This document shows positions 1-21,622 of a stretch of DNA of 22,885 bases, one piece after another. Each line of letters opens with the position of its first letter. The first letter of the stretch is position 1. Source of the stretch: a virus; IMG/VR virus record IMGVR_UViG_3300032304_002469, positions 1-22,885 of that record; one strand, written 5' to 3'. A program made the position numbers and the translations under genes. The notes under the pieces were generated by a model. It ran no database searches, was not told the DNA's origin, and was given only the letters and a program-made list of their open reading frames with translations.

Positions 1-747
1 AGAATAAGCACCAAATAACATTCCTGTACCAAGTAATGCACCAAGAGCGAGCAAAGAACTGCTACTAAAAGCACCAAGACCTTCTGCCAAATTTATTAAT
101 AGACTTTTTATTCCTTCTCCGCCGCCAAGAGCTTGGGCTGCGGCACCACCAGCGGCCAACGCAGCAATAAAACCTCCAATGCCTGCACCTAGTGCGGCTA
201 GTCCTAAACCGCCGCCTATGCTACCTAAAAATCCTGAAGATTTGGTATCAGCAGAACCAGGTGTTGTTGCTGTTGCGGAGGTTTTTGAAAATTTGGTTTT
301 ATAATCTTTTTCTCTTTGAGCCGCATTTTTAAAGAACATATCACCTTTTTTCTCACCTGCAATTCCTTGTTTTTTAATAAATTTAGCAAAGTTTTGCTTC
401 ATAATATTCATGTCATACGCCATACCAGGTAATGACATTGAATTTTTGGTGAAAATCGTTGTGTTTCTTTTAACTGCCGACATTTCATCAATTAAAACAT
501 TTAGTTTTAAATCCATCGAGGCACTAGAAAATGATGGAACAACTCCTGACGATGTTTTATTTGATGATCGTGAGGTCGCTGAATATGCTTTAAATAGTGA
601 AGGCAAAGCCGCAGCTAAAAACCCTCTTTGATTAAAAAGTTGCCGTGGGTCTATTTTTTCCAATGTTCTTTTGCCAACAGCAGAAAAAACACCACCACCT
701 TTTTCTTTTTCGGCCCGATATATTTCGGCTAATCTTGATTGTGCCAT
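1..747 (-). CDS. Tape-measure/hub-associated structural protein, N-terminal 249 aa (partial)
   Basis: Translation of the minus strand from the ATG at 747 stays open to the window edge, so at least 249 residues are present and the C-terminus is missing. The first ~165 residues are polar, with Lys/Arg-rich patches and a helical-looking stretch containing LPGMAYDMNIMKQNFAKFIK (about residues 107-126). From ~168 onward it becomes very rich in Gly, Ala and Leu, giving two hydrophobic segments at about 168-205 and 225-249. The start follows the preceding stop immediately (TAA then ATG). In many tailed phages the gene right after the frameshifted tail chaperone pair is the tape measure, and the hydrophobic Gly/Ala region fits that role. 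It could instead be a hub protein carrying a peptidoglycan hydrolase further downstream. I do not see a catalytic domain in this part. The role is inferred mainly from position and composition. Confidence 0.6.
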   Translation of the reverse strand, partial: MAQSRLAEIYRAEKEKGGGVFSAVGKRTLEKIDPRQLFNQRGFLAAALPSLFKAYSATSRSSNKTSSGVVPSFSSASMDLKLNVLIDEMSAVKRNTTIFTKNSMSLPGMAYDMNIMKQNFAKFIKKQGIAGEKKGDMFFKNAAQREKDYKTKFSKTSATATTPGSADTKSSGFLGSIGGGLGLAALGAGIGGFIAALAAGGAAAQALGGGEGIKSLLINLAEGLGAFSSSSLLALGALLGTGMLFGAYS

Positions 748-942
748 TTATTTTCTATTTCTTTGTTGTTTTAATTTTTCATTTTCTTCTTCAAGATACT
801 TTATTAACATATCTACATATAATTGTCTTTCCCACGGTATCATTCCATCCAATTCAGTTAAACTATATTTGTGATGCTGCATTAACGAAAAATTAGTTTG
901 ATAATAATTCTCCAAACTATCGTGAGAAAGACTTATGCGAAA
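748..942 (-). CDS. -1 frame extension of gp26-like protein (tail chaperone T-like segment)
   Basis: A 64-codon open frame lies between the gp26-like gene and the tape-measure-like gene, in the -1 frame relative to gp26. It has no credible start of its own: the first ATG (882) lacks a Shine-Dalgarno sequence at usable distance, and the only GGAG is about 27 nt upstream. Read through the slippery site at 939-948 it would add about 64 residues and give a 306-aa fusion. The segment ends in a charged, helical tail with the motif LDGMIPWERQLYVDMLIKYL followed by an E/K/Q-rich coiled-coil-like end. Tail assembly chaperones of many long-tailed phages (lambda G and G-T) are made this way just upstream of the tape measure. 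The assignment is inferred from frame, position and sequence character. The alternative is a free 44-aa protein from the ATG at 882. Confidence 0.72.
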   Translation of the reverse strand, partial: FRISLSHDSLENYYQTNFSLMQHHKYSLTELDGMIPWERQLYVDMLIKYLEEENEKLKQQRNRK

Positions 943-1667
943 AAATTTTGTACACCTTCAATTGTAACTTTCTCTGAATAATTACATTTTGGACATTTAA
1001 AGTCAAAATCTTTAGTTAATTTAGGCATTGTTTCAAAGAATTTTTGAATCTTTTCTAAGTCTGCTTGTTGTAGACTTTCAATAAAATCAATTAATTCTTT
1101 TTCACCTACATCTTTGGCATAATATATTTTATCATCATCGTACACATAATCAATACAACTTACAATTAAATTTAAAATATCAATGTCATTTCTTTTGTTT
1201 AATTTTTCAATCATATCAAAGTTTGGATATTTCATACAAACACCTAATTTATCCGATAATGCAATTTTATCAGTATGATTTGGATCTTTTATTGGCACAA
1301 TATCTAATAAATTTACATCAATTTTTACCAAACCTCCACAACTTTTATCTTTTCCTTCTTCATCTTGCACTACATTATTACAAGTATAACGAAGGTTGGT
1401 AATTTCACCAACTGATCTAGCTCTAAGATTTAGAAAAAGATTCTCTAAATCAAATGTAGGTAATTTATCAATATCAACTTTTTCATCCAATACACAATTT
1501 TTTAATACTTGTTTAATGGCACCTGTCACATCTTTTACATCATCAGACTGTGCAGCCATTAAAAATAGTTTTTGTTCTTTTACAAGAAACGGCCTAAAGC
1601 GAACAGATTTTCCAGTCGAAATAAGATTTGCTTCATATACAGGCACATCAAGTTTTGGCAAAGCCAT
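933..1667 (-). CDS. gp26: gp26-like baseplate hub/tail assembly protein
   Basis: A 244-aa protein (T4 gp26 is about 208 aa) resembling the T4 'base plate protein' family that includes gp26. The N-terminal part carries conserved-looking LPxxDVPxYE and FRPFLVKEQKLFL segments. There are two cysteine pairs, C96/C110 (YTCNN...SCGG) and C225/C228 (FKCPKC). Together they could bind one metal ion, although the spacing between them is large. A strong Shine-Dalgarno AGGAG (1674-1678) sits 6 nt before the ATG at 1667. It follows the gp54-like gene by 18 bp. In T4, gp26 acts in hub assembly. Here its 3' end carries a slippery sequence leading into a short -1 frame, so it probably works as the short form of a tail assembly chaperone pair for the downstream tape-measure-like protein. 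The family call is fairly secure; the chaperone role is inference. Confidence 0.72.
   Translation of the reverse strand: MALPKLDVPVYEANLISTGKSVRFRPFLVKEQKLFLMAAQSDDVKDVTGAIKQVLKNCVLDEKVDIDKLPTFDLENLFLNLRARSVGEITNLRYTCNNVVQDEEGKDKSCGGLVKIDVNLLDIVPIKDPNHTDKIALSDKLGVCMKYPNFDMIEKLNKRNDIDILNLIVSCIDYVYDDDKIYYAKDVGEKELIDFIESLQQADLEKIQKFFETMPKLTKDFDFKCPKCNYSEKVTIEGVQNFFA
939..948 (-). promoter_or_regulatory. Tandem -1 ribosomal slippery site A_AAT_TTT_TTC
   Basis: Read on the minus strand in the gp26 frame, the codons before the stop are CAA AAT TTT TTC GCA TAA. Both A_AAT_TTT and T_TTT_TTC fit the canonical X_XXY_YYZ heptamer and overlap each other. Slippage at either one yields the same -1 frame and the same peptide, entering the open frame that ends at 748. 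An SD-like AAGGTG (953-958) lies a few nucleotides upstream, as in other stimulated bacterial -1 sites. A 7-bp stem (913-919 with 894-900, 12-nt loop) lies downstream, but at 19 nt it is further away than usual. No expression data are available here. Confidence 0.75.
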
Positions 1668-16399: not shown

Positions 16400-19300
16400 A
16401 TGGCATTAGTTCAAAATTTTAATGTGAATCCTTATTATGATGATTATGATGAGGATAAAAAATTTCTCAGGATGCTCTTTCGTCCTGGTTACGCCGTTCA
16501 GGCTCGTGAATTAACTCAATTACAAACAATTCTACAAAAACAAGTTTCTCGTTTTGGTAAACATATTTTTAAAAATGGTTCAGTTGTAACTGGAGGAGAA
16601 GTTTCTTTATCAACTTCTGTTGTTTATCATAAACTACAAACTACATCTACATCTGGTGATGATGTAGATGTAGCAAATTTTCTTGGTAAAAATATTGGCA
16701 GTTCAAGTTCTCTGGCCGCAAATTCTGCTTTAGGTAAAGTTGTAGCTGTTACAGCTGCAACAACTACAGATCCTCCAACATTATTTGTTGAGTATAAAAC
16801 AGCATTACAGGCACAGGATGGTGAATCTCTCTACACTATAGATAGTGATCAATATGAAGCTCGTTTAATTGGTTCTAGTTCATCTGGCAAAGCTGCTACA
16901 GCAAGTGTAAATGATGGCGTTTATTTTATTGATGATTTTTTTGTTAAAGTTACTTCTCAAACAATAGTTTTAGAAAAATATGATAATGCACCAACTTATC
17001 GTGTTGGTTTAGCTTATGAAGAAAGTATAGTCGATGAAAAAACGGATACCTCTTTATTGGATCCAGCGTTAAATGCTTCCAATTACCAAGCTCCAGGTTC
17101 TACTCGTTATAAAGTAAATCTTTCTTTAGCTACAAGAACTTTAAACTCAACTGATGACACAAAGTTTATTGAAATAATTCGTATTGAAAGTGGTACAGTT
17201 ACTCTAAGAAATAGTTATCCTTTATATTCTGAATTAGAAAAAACATTAGCTCGCAGAACATATGATGAATCTGGTAATTATACCGTAAAACCATTTACAA
17301 TTTATTTAAAAGATCATATTCCTAATACAGGAAATGCATCTAATTCTGCTCTATTTACTGCCAAATTAAGTGTAGGAAAAGCTTATATTCGTGGCCAAGA
17401 AATTGAAACTGTATCTCCAATAAATTTGGAGTTAGAGAGAGCTAGAGATAAAACATCGGTCCAAAACTACGATATTGCTGCAAATTATGGTAATTACATT
17501 ACTGTTGCTAACACAAAGGGTCTTTTTGATGTTAGTACAATGCAAACAATTGATTTACATTGTGTTGTAAACGGAAATATATCCATATCAAACACAACAA
17601 CATATAACTCAACTAAAATTGGAACTGCTCGTATTCGTGAAGTTGAATATGTTTCTGCAGCTAATACTCAGGATTCTACAAGTTACAAATACAATCTTTA
17701 TCTTTATGATACTCGGTTTGTTTCTCAAACAGGTAATTGTTCTGGTTCGGGAACAACAAACACAATTGTTCTTTCAAATACCGCAGGCGTAATTTCTAAT
17801 ACTGCAAATGCATATTACGATACTTTCATAAGAATCTCTGGAGGTTATGGCGCAGACAATGTGAAACATAGAATTGTTTCATATAATAATATGACAAAGA
17901 CAGCAACAATTGCTGATATATTTGCCATACCTGCTGGCCCAAGAAGTAATTCTGTGTATACAATTGATTTCAATGTTAAAGATATTGAATCTTTTGCTAT
18001 CATCAATTCTACACCACAAATTGTTGCTTCTGCCAACGTTGATGTAACAAATCAAGAAACTCCTGGAAGTAATGCCTATTTTTCAGATACAAATTTCAAA
18101 TCTCTTGTATTTCGTGTGCCTCAGTCATTTGTTAGTTTTGGAATGTCTGACCAAGATTTTAGAGGTAAAGCTGTATTTAAAAATCAAACCGTATCAGCAG
18201 GTGCTTTATCAATATCTACTGGTTCTGCAAACAATGTATTTGTTGGTACCGGTGCTTTATCTGATGCTCAAAAATTAACTCATTTTTATGTTGTTGCTAA
18301 TAATTCTACAGAATTCACGCAAGGTCAAGTAATTCCATTTACTTCTGGAACTGGAAGAACAGTTTCAGTTTCAACTTCTTCTGCTACTCTTAATTTTAAT
18401 TCAGTAAATACATTTACAGTTGACGTTATTGCTTCAGTAGATTTTAATACAACAACACCTAAAGTAAAAACATTAGTATCTGCAAATACAACTGGCATAG
18501 GAACAGGCGGAGTAACGATTGGTAGTACAACAATTTTCGCTGCAGATGGTCAAGTTGCTATCACCACACCAAATAAAGTTCCTGGTCAATCAGATAATCT
18601 TTATATTTCTGACATTTATAAATTAGAAGGTACCTTTGAACAAACTTATGGATATTTTACTGTCACTTCAGGTGGTTCTTCGGTTAAATCTTCCTTTAAA
18701 GTTATTGACTCATTAAATCCTTCTACCTCAGTTGTTCTTGCTGACTTAACAAATGCAGCTAAAGATATTACTGATCGTTATATTTTAAATGATGGTCAAC
18801 AAGATGGTTATTATGACCATGGTTCTATTACTTTAAGACCAGGTGCAGCACCTCCAAAAGGTCGAATATTAGTTCTTGTTAATTATTTTACACATACAGG
18901 TTCTGGTTATTTTACCGTTGATTCTTATAATAATGGTTCTCTTGGAGCAACTGAAGATATTCGTTATACAAAAATTCCAAATTATACTAGCCCAACAACA
19001 GGTGAAGTTTATAAACTAAGAGATTGTGTTGATTTTAGACCTATTCGAACAAATGCTGTAGCTACAACTCCTAATTTCACACTTTCTGGTATTTCAATAC
19101 CTAGAGCAGCAGAATCTTTAGAATCTGACTATTCTTATTACATTCCAAGAACCGATAGAATTGTATTAGGCGAGGATAAAAAATTTAGAGTTATTAAAGG
19201 AGTTTCATCTTTATATCCACAAACTCCTCCTGAGCCAGATAATGTAATGAGTTTATATACGATTCGTGTAAACCCATATACTTTCTTTCCAAATGATGTA

Positions 19301-21622
19301 AAACTTCAGTATATCGAAAATAAACGATATACAATGCGTGATATTGGCAACTTAGAAAAAAGAATTGAAAATTTAGAATATTACACAGCTCTAAACACAT
19401 TAGAAAAAGCAGCACAAGATTTAACTGTTTTGGATGAAAATGGTTTAGAAAGATTTAAAAATGGTATTCTTACTGATTCGTTTAGAGGCCACCAAGTAGG
19501 TGATGTTAAAAATGTGGACTATAAATGTGCTATGGATTTTAATGCTGGAGAATTAAGACCGTCTTTTATTTCTACAAGTATTGGTTTTCAAACAAATACT
19601 TCATTAACATCAGCTACTGTTGATGCTGGAACAATTGTAACTTCACCGTATACAGTTAAAACATTTATTACACAAAATGTAGCCACTCAAGCCATGGCTG
19701 TTAATCCATTTGTTCTTTCAAACTATGCAGGTACACTTGATTTTTATCCTCCAGGAGATTTTTGGATTGATACAGAAACAAGACCAGATGTACTTGTGAA
19801 TATGGAAGGTGAAAATGATGCTTGGGAACAAATTGGTGCAGCATTACATGACACAAGGGCTGCGGGATGGGGAAATCAATGGGGCGATTGGAATGAATTT
19901 GTTTCTGGTAAAAATGTTGGAGTTAGCACCGGATCAGAAAGCAGATCAGTAGGTTACCTTGATTATCAGGATACAGTACAAAGCACAACTACAGTAACAC
20001 AATTTTCCAGAGAGCGTTTTGGTACTAAAAAAGTATTGGTGCCAGAAAGAATTGTAAAGAGTATCGGTAATCGTCAAGTTGACCTTTCTGTTGTCCCTTA
20101 TATTCGTGCTCAATGGATTATTACTGTTGCAAAAGGTTTAAGACCAAATCAATATCATTACCTTTTTGCTGAACAAGGCGACCTTGATGCAACAAAGTAC
20201 ATTGAATATCCAGCTCTTGTTTGGTTATATAATGTAAGTGGAAATTTTAATGACGGTTATGGTGTATTTGAAACTGTTACTTCTTCTAGCGGCGGTACGG
20301 CTAGGGTATTGAAACAACAGGGCCGTTCTTGGTCTTTAAATCAACCAGTAATTTATTTGGGTGATGTTCGTGGAACATTTGCTGCAAATGACACAATTAC
20401 AGGTACAGTAAGTGGTGCAACAGCTAGAATTGATATTATGTTTTGGAATAACGGCAATACAACCACAGCTACTGCTAATACAATCACTTTAGGTTCTGGT
20501 GCACCAGTAAATAATGCTTATGTAAATTTACAATCATCTTATGCAACAGTTACTTGGCCTTCATCAGGAACTAAAAATTTTACAGATCCAATAACTGCAT
20601 CACAGTTTTATCAAATAAGAATTGTTGCTGGTACAGGTCTTGGCCAAGAAAGAACAATTACAAATTATGTTGGATCAACAAAAGTTGCTACAATTACTCC
20701 AAATTGGGATATAACTCCAGATAATACATCTCGTTGGTCTGTAGGTAAACCACAATCTGACGACCATGGCGATATGGCCGGTCGTTGGTTCTTGCCTAAT
20801 TATGGACCAACATCTTATGATGACGGTTGGAGAAGTAGGACCGGTGCTCGCTTAATTAGATTAACAAGTGATGAAAATAACGATCCTTTGCAAACCAACT
20901 CTTTTGCTGAAGAACAATGGTATGCTCAAGGTGTATTGAATGTTGTTGAAGAAGTTTCTATTTCTGTTCGTGTACCAACAATTCAAAATCAAGTTATTTA
21001 CGAAAAAAATGATAATTATAGATCAACAACTGCTGTTGAACGGCAAGTTTTAGGAACAACTTTAGTACGAGATAGGACTCCTGCACCGTCTAGTGGTGGC
21101 CGTGGAGGTAAAATCATTTGTTCAGAAATGGCTCGCCAAGGATTCTTTGCACCAGATATTAATGAAGCTGATCAAAGATTTGGTCGCCGACTACAACGCA
21201 ATCACCCTATCATTTATCGTGGTTATGTTTATTGGGCAAGAACCATTGTCGAATGGTTAAAAGGTAAAGGTCCAAGTTTATACCTTTGGGACATGAAAGA
21301 CAATAATGAAATGCAAAAAAATATTGCACTACATATGACAGAGGTCATTGCTAAACCTTGGTCTGATGAAATGGCTTATATTGAAAGAGTTCGTGACGAA
21401 GGTTCTTTAGTAGGTAAATTTGTATTTTGGTTAGGTTTAGTGATCTGTGCGGTTGTTGGTTTGACAAATCCAAACCTAGATAAACCAGACAGTAGATTAA
21501 AAGGATATACAATTTTTACTTTTATGGTGGCATTTTATATTTTAGTTTCTTTAATTAATATTGTAACATCACCATTTAAAACAATTAAAGAATTTTTTAA
21601 AAGTAAATTAATTAGGAATTAA
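16400..21622 (+). CDS. Giant DUF4815-like baseplate/fibre protein (1740 aa)
   Basis: The N-terminus FNVNPYYDDYDEDKKFLRML, FRPGYAVQARELTQLQTILQ, KQVSRFGKHIFKNGSVVTGG is that of the DUF4815 family of phage structural proteins (named from memory). These follow the wedge genes in many marine T4-like phages. Two related 'R-I-x-x-G-x-G-x-x-x-x-R-x-I-x-x-Y' beta modules occur at about 444-520 and 1372-1450, and an SSGGTARV...TGTVSGATARI unit at about 1287-1347. The segment at about 1020-1050 (RYTMRDIGNLEKRIENLEYY) is a predicted helix or coiled coil. Near 1566-1625 lies a conserved-looking CSEMARQGFFAPDINEADQR, FGRR block. The last ~70 residues contain two hydrophobic segments (about 1673-1688 and 1703-1722) before a basic tail. 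It probably forms the peripheral baseplate in place of T4 gp9/gp10-type proteins. A clear AAAGG ribosome site precedes the ATG. Confidence 0.8.
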   Translation: MALVQNFNVNPYYDDYDEDKKFLRMLFRPGYAVQARELTQLQTILQKQVSRFGKHIFKNGSVVTGGEVSLSTSVVYHKLQTTSTSGDDVDVANFLGKNIGSSSSLAANSALGKVVAVTAATTTDPPTLFVEYKTALQAQDGESLYTIDSDQYEARLIGSSSSGKAATASVNDGVYFIDDFFVKVTSQTIVLEKYDNAPTYRVGLAYEESIVDEKTDTSLLDPALNASNYQAPGSTRYKVNLSLATRTLNSTDDTKFIEIIRIESGTVTLRNSYPLYSELEKTLARRTYDESGNYTVKPFTIYLKDHIPNTGNASNSALFTAKLSVGKAYIRGQEIETVSPINLELERARDKTSVQNYDIAANYGNYITVANTKGLFDVSTMQTIDLHCVVNGNISISNTTTYNSTKIGTARIREVEYVSAANTQDSTSYKYNLYLYDTRFVSQTGNCSGSGTTNTIVLSNTAGVISNTANAYYDTFIRISGGYGADNVKHRIVSYNNMTKTATIADIFAIPAGPRSNSVYTIDFNVKDIESFAIINSTPQIVASANVDVTNQETPGSNAYFSDTNFKSLVFRVPQSFVSFGMSDQDFRGKAVFKNQTVSAGALSISTGSANNVFVGTGALSDAQKLTHFYVVANNSTEFTQGQVIPFTSGTGRTVSVSTSSATLNFNSVNTFTVDVIASVDFNTTTPKVKTLVSANTTGIGTGGVTIGSTTIFAADGQVAITTPNKVPGQSDNLYISDIYKLEGTFEQTYGYFTVTSGGSSVKSSFKVIDSLNPSTSVVLADLTNAAKDITDRYILNDGQQDGYYDHGSITLRPGAAPPKGRILVLVNYFTHTGSGYFTVDSYNNGSLGATEDIRYTKIPNYTSPTTGEVYKLRDCVDFRPIRTNAVATTPNFTLSGISIPRAAESLESDYSYYIPRTDRIVLGEDKKFRVIKGVSSLYPQTPPEPDNVMSLYTIRVNPYTFFPNDVKLQYIENKRYTMRDIGNLEKRIENLEYYTALNTLEKAAQDLTVLDENGLERFKNGILTDSFRGHQVGDVKNVDYKCAMDFNAGELRPSFISTSIGFQTNTSLTSATVDAGTIVTSPYTVKTFITQNVATQAMAVNPFVLSNYAGTLDFYPPGDFWIDTETRPDVLVNMEGENDAWEQIGAALHDTRAAGWGNQWGDWNEFVSGKNVGVSTGSESRSVGYLDYQDTVQSTTTVTQFSRERFGTKKVLVPERIVKSIGNRQVDLSVVPYIRAQWIITVAKGLRPNQYHYLFAEQGDLDATKYIEYPALVWLYNVSGNFNDGYGVFETVTSSSGGTARVLKQQGRSWSLNQPVIYLGDVRGTFAANDTITGTVSGATARIDIMFWNNGNTTTATANTITLGSGAPVNNAYVNLQSSYATVTWPSSGTKNFTDPITASQFYQIRIVAGTGLGQERTITNYVGSTKVATITPNWDITPDNTSRWSVGKPQSDDHGDMAGRWFLPNYGPTSYDDGWRSRTGARLIRLTSDENNDPLQTNSFAEEQWYAQGVLNVVEEVSISVRVPTIQNQVIYEKNDNYRSTTAVERQVLGTTLVRDRTPAPSSGGRGGKIICSEMARQGFFAPDINEADQRFGRRLQRNHPIIYRGYVYWARTIVEWLKGKGPSLYLWDMKDNNEMQKNIALHMTEVIAKPWSDEMAYIERVRDEGSLVGKFVFWLGLVICAVVGLTNPNLDKPDSRLKGYTIFTFMVAFYILVSLINIVTSPFKTIKEFFKSKLIRN
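16641..16673 (+). other. Perfect 13-bp inverted repeat (hairpin) inside the 1740-aa gene
   Basis: CTACATCTACATC (16641-16653), a 7-base loop TGGTGAT, then GATGTAGATGTAG (16661-16673), an exact reverse complement. It lies about 240 nt into the gene and encodes the T-S-T-S-G-D-D-V-D-V stretch. A short T-rich run follows a few bases downstream. It could pause ribosomes, cause partial termination, or be an RNA processing site. Confidence 0.75.

Follow-up and report, generated by a model that had tools for sequence, protein, structure and literature searches.

A probable -1 programmed frameshift producing two tail assembly chaperones in T4-like phages

A conserved -1 frameshift is reportedly the mark of a family of tail assembly chaperones described by Xu, Hendrix and Duda in 2004, and the title of a 2022 article by Vladimirov, Gautam and Davidson is said to argue for a mechanism other than frameshifting. 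The frameshift that gives lambda G and G-T has been reviewed as widely conserved in long-tailed phages "except T4" (2016 review, PMC5009743). According to two later articles that cite the work (PMC10885494, PMC12846349), the tail chaperone genes of T4-like phages were identified by Vladimirov, Gautam and Davidson (Virology 2022), reportedly with poly-T signals. PMC12846349 also describes Vandenendeviridae/Andersonviridae (phage Adele), in which the -1 frame of the tail chaperone is conserved through to the tape measure gene and the poly-T signal is GTTTTT. By these accounts, tail chaperone genes with poly-T signals in T4-like phages have apparently been known since 2022; what we add are tests across the whole family, the signals of candidate stimulators and an explanation for gp51.

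We analysed a stretch of 22,885 nt from a T4-like phage fragment (IMGVR_UViG_3300032304_002469), referred to here as the window. The junction between its gp26-like gene and the reading frame behind it contains the following features:

933..1667, minus strand: gp26-like gene, the 0-frame short form of 244 aa, with an ATG start (PF12322 T4_baseplate, E 2.7e-63; phrog_150, E 8.3e-70)
939..945, minus strand: slippery heptamer T_TTT_TTC, in phase with the gp26 codons AAT TTT TTC
942..948, minus strand: overlapping heptamer A_AAT_TTT, present in the window and not conserved in the family
748..939, minus strand: gp51-like extension in the -1 frame, 63 sense codons and a stop (TAA 750-748), putative equivalent of the T domain (phrog_634, E 4.7e-27)
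748..1667, minus strand: predicted long form of 306 aa made by the -1 frameshift, putative G-T equivalent, with VQNFFRIS as predicted junction peptide
953..959, minus strand: Shine-Dalgarno-like (SD-like) GAAGGTG, with 9 nt between GAAGG and the heptamer, a probable stimulator
894..919, minus strand: 7-bp stem with a 12-nt loop (arms 919-913 and 900-894), a possible stimulator, weak at this locus
1..747, minus strand: tape-measure-like gene with its ATG at 747, cut by the window end, encoding Gly/Ala-rich hydrophobic repeats

The gp26-like gene ends in CAA AAT TTT TTC GCA TAA, with the TAA at 935-933 on the minus strand. The initial annotation had proposed a -1 frameshift here, and its coordinates, ORF ends and product lengths (244 and 306 aa) all check out. 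Both of the overlapping in-frame heptamers that it described are present (948-942 and 945-939), and the -1 frame is indeed open to 748, where the TAA directly precedes the ATG of the next gene. The downstream ORF lacks a good start, as had been stated: there is no ATG before the Met of LMQHH, and the first candidate is a TTG at codon 9 with a poor Shine-Dalgarno sequence. This ORF matches phrog_634, named "baseplate hub assembly catalyst" (gp51). The gp26-like protein matches positions 5-232 of phrog_150 and the -1 ORF positions 237-278, so that one family already holds both pieces in series. No second gp26-type match was found in the 22.9-kb fragment, and the ORF at the place of gp51 consists of the extension only. 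Heptamers of the X_XXY_YYZ type are common in the AT-rich window (104 in the 6839 codons of its genes, among them 10 T_TTT_TTN; T_TTT_TTC occurs once, at the junction). The single genome is therefore only suggestive, and the proof has to be carried by comparative data.

We assign a probability of roughly 0.93 to the reading that a -1 programmed frameshift at this site gives tail assembly chaperones of 244 and 306 aa, equivalent to lambda G and G-T. The anatomy of the junction, its conservation, selection on the -1 frame, homology to T4 gp26 and gp51 and a chaperone-like fold form the basis on which we infer the slippage itself, its rate and the roles of the products. Most ribosomes would stop at the TAA and release the short form. 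Some, with two tRNA-Phe on TTT TTC, would slip by -1 onto TTT TTT and continue in that frame as far as 748, which would yield the long form with its helical extension of 63 aa; since a single tRNA-Phe normally decodes both TTT and TTC, both tRNAs could pair again after the slip. The event would be stimulated by an SD-like element upstream and, in most relatives, a hairpin downstream. By analogy with lambda G/G-T, many copies of the short form and few of the long one would coat the tape measure protein, the putative product of the next gene, and tube subunits would be recruited by the extension.

For the comparison, five scans of viral contigs, together with 21 regions from named phages, supplied 419 loci. 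In all 406 loci that have both parts on one strand, the extension occupies the -1 frame, which is open over the gp26 stop. Neither a +1 arrangement nor an in-frame (0-frame) fusion was found among the surveyed loci, including a set fetched later; the sole other arrangement among them is the T4 type, in which the genes are on opposite strands. T_TTT_TTN stands in phase in 401 of the 405 loci with complete gp26 ends and in 154 of 158 non-redundant representatives (clustered at 80% protein identity). The same picture is seen in all 42 testable loci of the later set, which came from bacterial and archaeal assemblies, and in Aeh1, Cronobacter S13, Citrobacter Ci1 and Vibrio nt-1. Homologues in which the downstream ORF is retained but has a start of its own and lacks a slippery site had been named as possible counter-evidence; we looked for them in more than 400 loci and found the slip site and the -1 frame almost universally kept. 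Loci without the extension are mostly contig ends; two others, L092 and L456, are diverged or broken. L456 lies on a chromosome labelled archaeal (Heimdallarchaeota MAG, CP070695.1) and consists of a gp26 relative with 47% identity to residues 1-150 and a broken C-terminal part; it is either a degraded insertion or a case of mis-binning.

Four exceptions do without the canonical heptamer. Three are Ackermannviridae phages; the fourth, Vibrio phage K393, clusters with these three in the tree. All four carry ATT TTC, CTT TTC or GTT TTT at the slip position, and a weaker or different slippage signal may be in operation in this group. Their loci (L094, L095, L101 and L092) keep the extension, with GAG ATT TTC, CAC GTT TTT and TCA CTT TTC as the sites. 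The site of Vibrio phage VP-1 is GTT TTT.

A preceding codon that ends in T and a first Phe codon TTT were the selection criteria for the 154 loci, and the test is the 154 out of 158; from the gene's own codon usage, given the amino acids, these first two codon choices would be expected in 67.8 of 154. The codon before TTT is AGT in 49 loci, GAT in 39, AAT in 33, TCT in 24 and another in 9 (GCT being among the variants), and the second slip codon is TTC in 124, TTT in 22, TTA in 7 and TTG in one. Elsewhere in gp26-like ORFs, the same hexamer occurs at 0.00084 per codon. The observation made at the junction is confirmed, far above chance, and T_TTT_TTN is the slip site as predicted from these alignments. 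Only one of the two heptamers first pointed out has therefore stood: T_TTT_TTC belongs to the conserved type, whereas A_AAT_TTT, with its variable preceding codon, is a local coincidence and was rejected as the working slip site.

Around the slip site, two kinds of candidate stimulators could be recognized. A GAG/GAA GGN codon pair is found about 9 nt upstream of the heptamer throughout the family; the SD-like AAGGTG that had been noticed in the window is there at 958-953, and the motif is enriched at the family level. Over the representatives, which share ancestry and are not independent trials, the anti-SD energy is -5.95 kcal/mol versus -5.03 kcal/mol for synonymous recodings and is better in 105 of 154, so that the conserved Gly is not the whole explanation of the motif. 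Across the same related representatives, predicted structure peaks at slip+9 to slip+49 (mean z -1.66, s.e.m. 0.16; -0.5 or weaker away from the site), and the peak survives a synonymous-codon null that preserves the -1 protein (mean z -1.56). We infer an effect of these elements on slippage, which for the upstream SD-like element is probable. As to the 7-bp stem that had been proposed downstream, it is present at 894-919 and begins 19 nt past the heptamer, and hairpins are a family-level feature; individually it is weak (z -1.14). As a conserved stimulator this particular stem is unsupported, the signal being a family-wide tendency to form hairpins in several registers.

The relation to T4 was examined with sequence profiles. 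Gene 26 (208 aa) and gene 51 (249 aa) of T4 lie on opposite strands, and Aeromonas 25 and Acinetobacter 133, like T4, have two genes; the window is without this Tevenvirinae arrangement. The family profile matches T4 gp26 at 2.2e-24, and the T4 gp26 match to phrog_150 ends at position 235 of 282. T4 gp51 matches PF12322 with its residues 1-201 and phrog_150 nearly end to end. A profile of the joined product matches gp51 of T4 (E 3e-15), Aeromonas 25 (E 5e-20) and Acinetobacter 133 (E 2e-16), and the extension profile matches the last ~45 residues of these three proteins. T4 gp51 thus consists of a gp26-like part plus the extension, which means that T4 encodes the two forms in separate genes, the long one ready-made. 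The profile matches bear out the suggestion in the initial annotation that gp26 with its extension is the T4-type equivalent, T4 gp26 corresponding to the short form and T4 gp51 to the long one.

Compared with T4 gp51, the cyanophage and vibriophage copies have been described as lacking the N-terminal ~200 residues, and Aeh1 as having no gp51 (Sullivan et al. 2010, PMC3037559). In Aeromonas phage Aeh1, we found an unannotated -1 extension behind GAT TTT TTC (locus L464, ~1586-1760; extension profile E 9.6e-16). Both the short marine gp51 and its "absence" from Aeh1 are explained by these results, because gp26 supplies the N-terminal part and the Aeh1 extension had not been annotated. In an unrooted tree with long branches, the frameshifting gp26 proteins, including those of the Straboviridae KVP40 and Aeromonas AS-zj, cluster apart from the T4-type gp26 and gp51. 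It seems likely that the -1 frameshift is ancestral for the two tail chaperones across the T4 superfamily (Kyanoviridae, non-T-even Straboviridae, Ackermannviridae and several unclassified lineages), that the T-evens replaced recoding by duplication into gp26 and a ready-fused gp51, and that the marine "truncated gp51" is an annotation artefact.

An AlphaFold2 model of the gp26-like protein (mean pLDDT 94.3) was compared with 998 solved chains by VIA-align. The best two matches, both over residues 1-96, were 3fgx (Z 8.3, 86 aligned, 3.9 A) and the HK97 tail assembly chaperone 2ob9 (Z 7.3, 84 aligned, 4.0 A), with Z values of 7-8 being modest and in a range where unrelated matches occur; the third-best reached Z 4.9. 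The match to 2ob9 concerns the very family that is predicted from gene order, and the model modestly favours a chaperone-like fold in the N-terminal part of the gp26-like protein. The third-best match, 5ir0, is ORF19 of a Vibrio cholerae PICI-like element, a protein without known function; this satellite-element protein is perhaps a chaperone mimic. The extension is modelled as three helices, for which no fold match was found among the solved structures, and when both alignments were searched by sequence against solved structures, no credible match came up.

The tape-measure-like protein encoded next is made up of Gly/Ala-rich hydrophobic repeats. In locus L001 (2921-4732) it is at least 604 aa long; a lysozyme-like domain is located around residues 504-602, close to where the L001 sequence ends. 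Searches with this protein gave phrog_7 (E 3e-9) and Phage_lysozyme (0.0016, below the Pfam cut-off) and no match to a tape-measure profile. Composition, length and the lysozyme-like domain would fit a tape measure protein, and in phiM12 the annotation "similarity to phage tape measure proteins" is given three genes after gp26. Some relatives have an ORF of ~90-140 aa between the extension and the tape-measure-like gene; these are of pelagiphage, methylophage and rhizobiophage type (L081, L084, L088 and many other loci). At 16400-21622 of the window, a 1740-aa structural gene ends in hydrophobic, probably membrane-spanning segments, which is unusual for a baseplate protein.

How the -1 frame is entered can be judged from the selection acting on it. 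Calculated over 2698 pairs of related sequences, its dN/dS was 0.17 for codons 1-16 and 0.09 for codons 17-48, versus 1.29 and 1.51 for the same bases in the two other frames, which served as control. The extension measures 56-73 codons across loci; open stretches in the +1 frame have a median length of 5. Within the first 12 codons, an ATG is lacking in 106 of the 154 non-redundant loci, and 87 lack GTG and TTG as well. Purifying selection that begins at a point without a start codon indicates a protein entered from upstream, and by this measure the -1 frame is coding from the slip site onward, ahead of any start codon in most loci. Public records for P-SSM2, S-PM2, Syn9 and KVP40 nevertheless annotate an independent small gene, gp51 of ~57 aa, which would be translated from its own start or by termination-reinitiation at the gp26 stop. 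KVP40 does have TAATG, and within 3 codons of the slip site there is an ATG in 39 of 154 loci and any start in 45, where a free gp51 could also arise. However, residues are under purifying selection in the 12 codons of the 87 loci without a start as well; a free gene would have no need for a constant -1 frame, for an opening across the stop or for a position after T6; and T4-type gp51 carries a gp26-like part fused to it. We regard an independent gene as very unlikely, the start-codon and dN/dS data disfavouring a free gp51 as the sole explanation.

The frames could also be joined by RNA polymerase slipping on the T run, and not by the ribosome. A homopolymer is present, and with TTT TTT it has at least seven Ts in 22 of 154 loci, but the other 132 (TTC, TTA or TTG) have exactly six. 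Six Ts are short for polymerase slippage. The SD-like and hairpin elements are enriched at a spacing that is relevant to the ribosome, and polymerase slippage is in our judgement extremely improbable. Another reading accepts the frameshift product as real and takes it for a baseplate hub protein or hub assembly catalyst in place of a tape-measure chaperone. The names of PF12322, phrog_150 and phrog_634 point to baseplate and hub; in the T4 literature, gp26 is a possible hub component, and gp26 and gp51 are also listed as hub assembly chaperones (PMC3004832). Set against this are the predicted short and long forms just before a tape-measure-like gene, which is the lambda pattern, the resemblance of residues 1-96 in the predicted model to the HK97 tail chaperone, and the assignment of the T4-like chaperone genes by Vladimirov et al. 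2022, as reported in PMC10885494 and PMC12846349. We consider this hub reading unlikely.

T4-like phages are among the most abundant ocean viruses, and in public records their gp51 is annotated as a stand-alone protein of reduced size and, for Aeh1, as absent. Read as the frameshifted end of gp26, gp51 regains the missing ~200 residues, and the T4-likes would come into the lambda G/G-T scheme. The family would offer a natural comparison of two ways to make two protein forms, ribosome slippage and gene duplication, and T_TTT_TTN at the end of PF12322 genes could be used as an annotation rule.

Among the known systems, T4 gp26 and gp51 are homologous to the proteins of the window; they are two separate genes on opposite strands, whereas the window has one gene and a predicted frameshift. 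The short gp51 of cyanophages and vibriophages is the same ORF, read as a reduced gene in PMC3037559 and here as the frameshifted tail of gp26. The phage Adele system shares the -1 frame leading to the tape measure gene and the poly-T, and differs in phage family and in having GTTTTT in place of TTTTTTC. With lambda G/G-T, the locus shares one start for a short and a long product, a (here predicted) -1 slip near the end of the first ORF, an extension without a start, the position upstream of a tape-measure-like gene and a chaperone-like N-terminal fold; it differs in its slip site T_TTT_TTN, and the two systems have no established relation in sequence.
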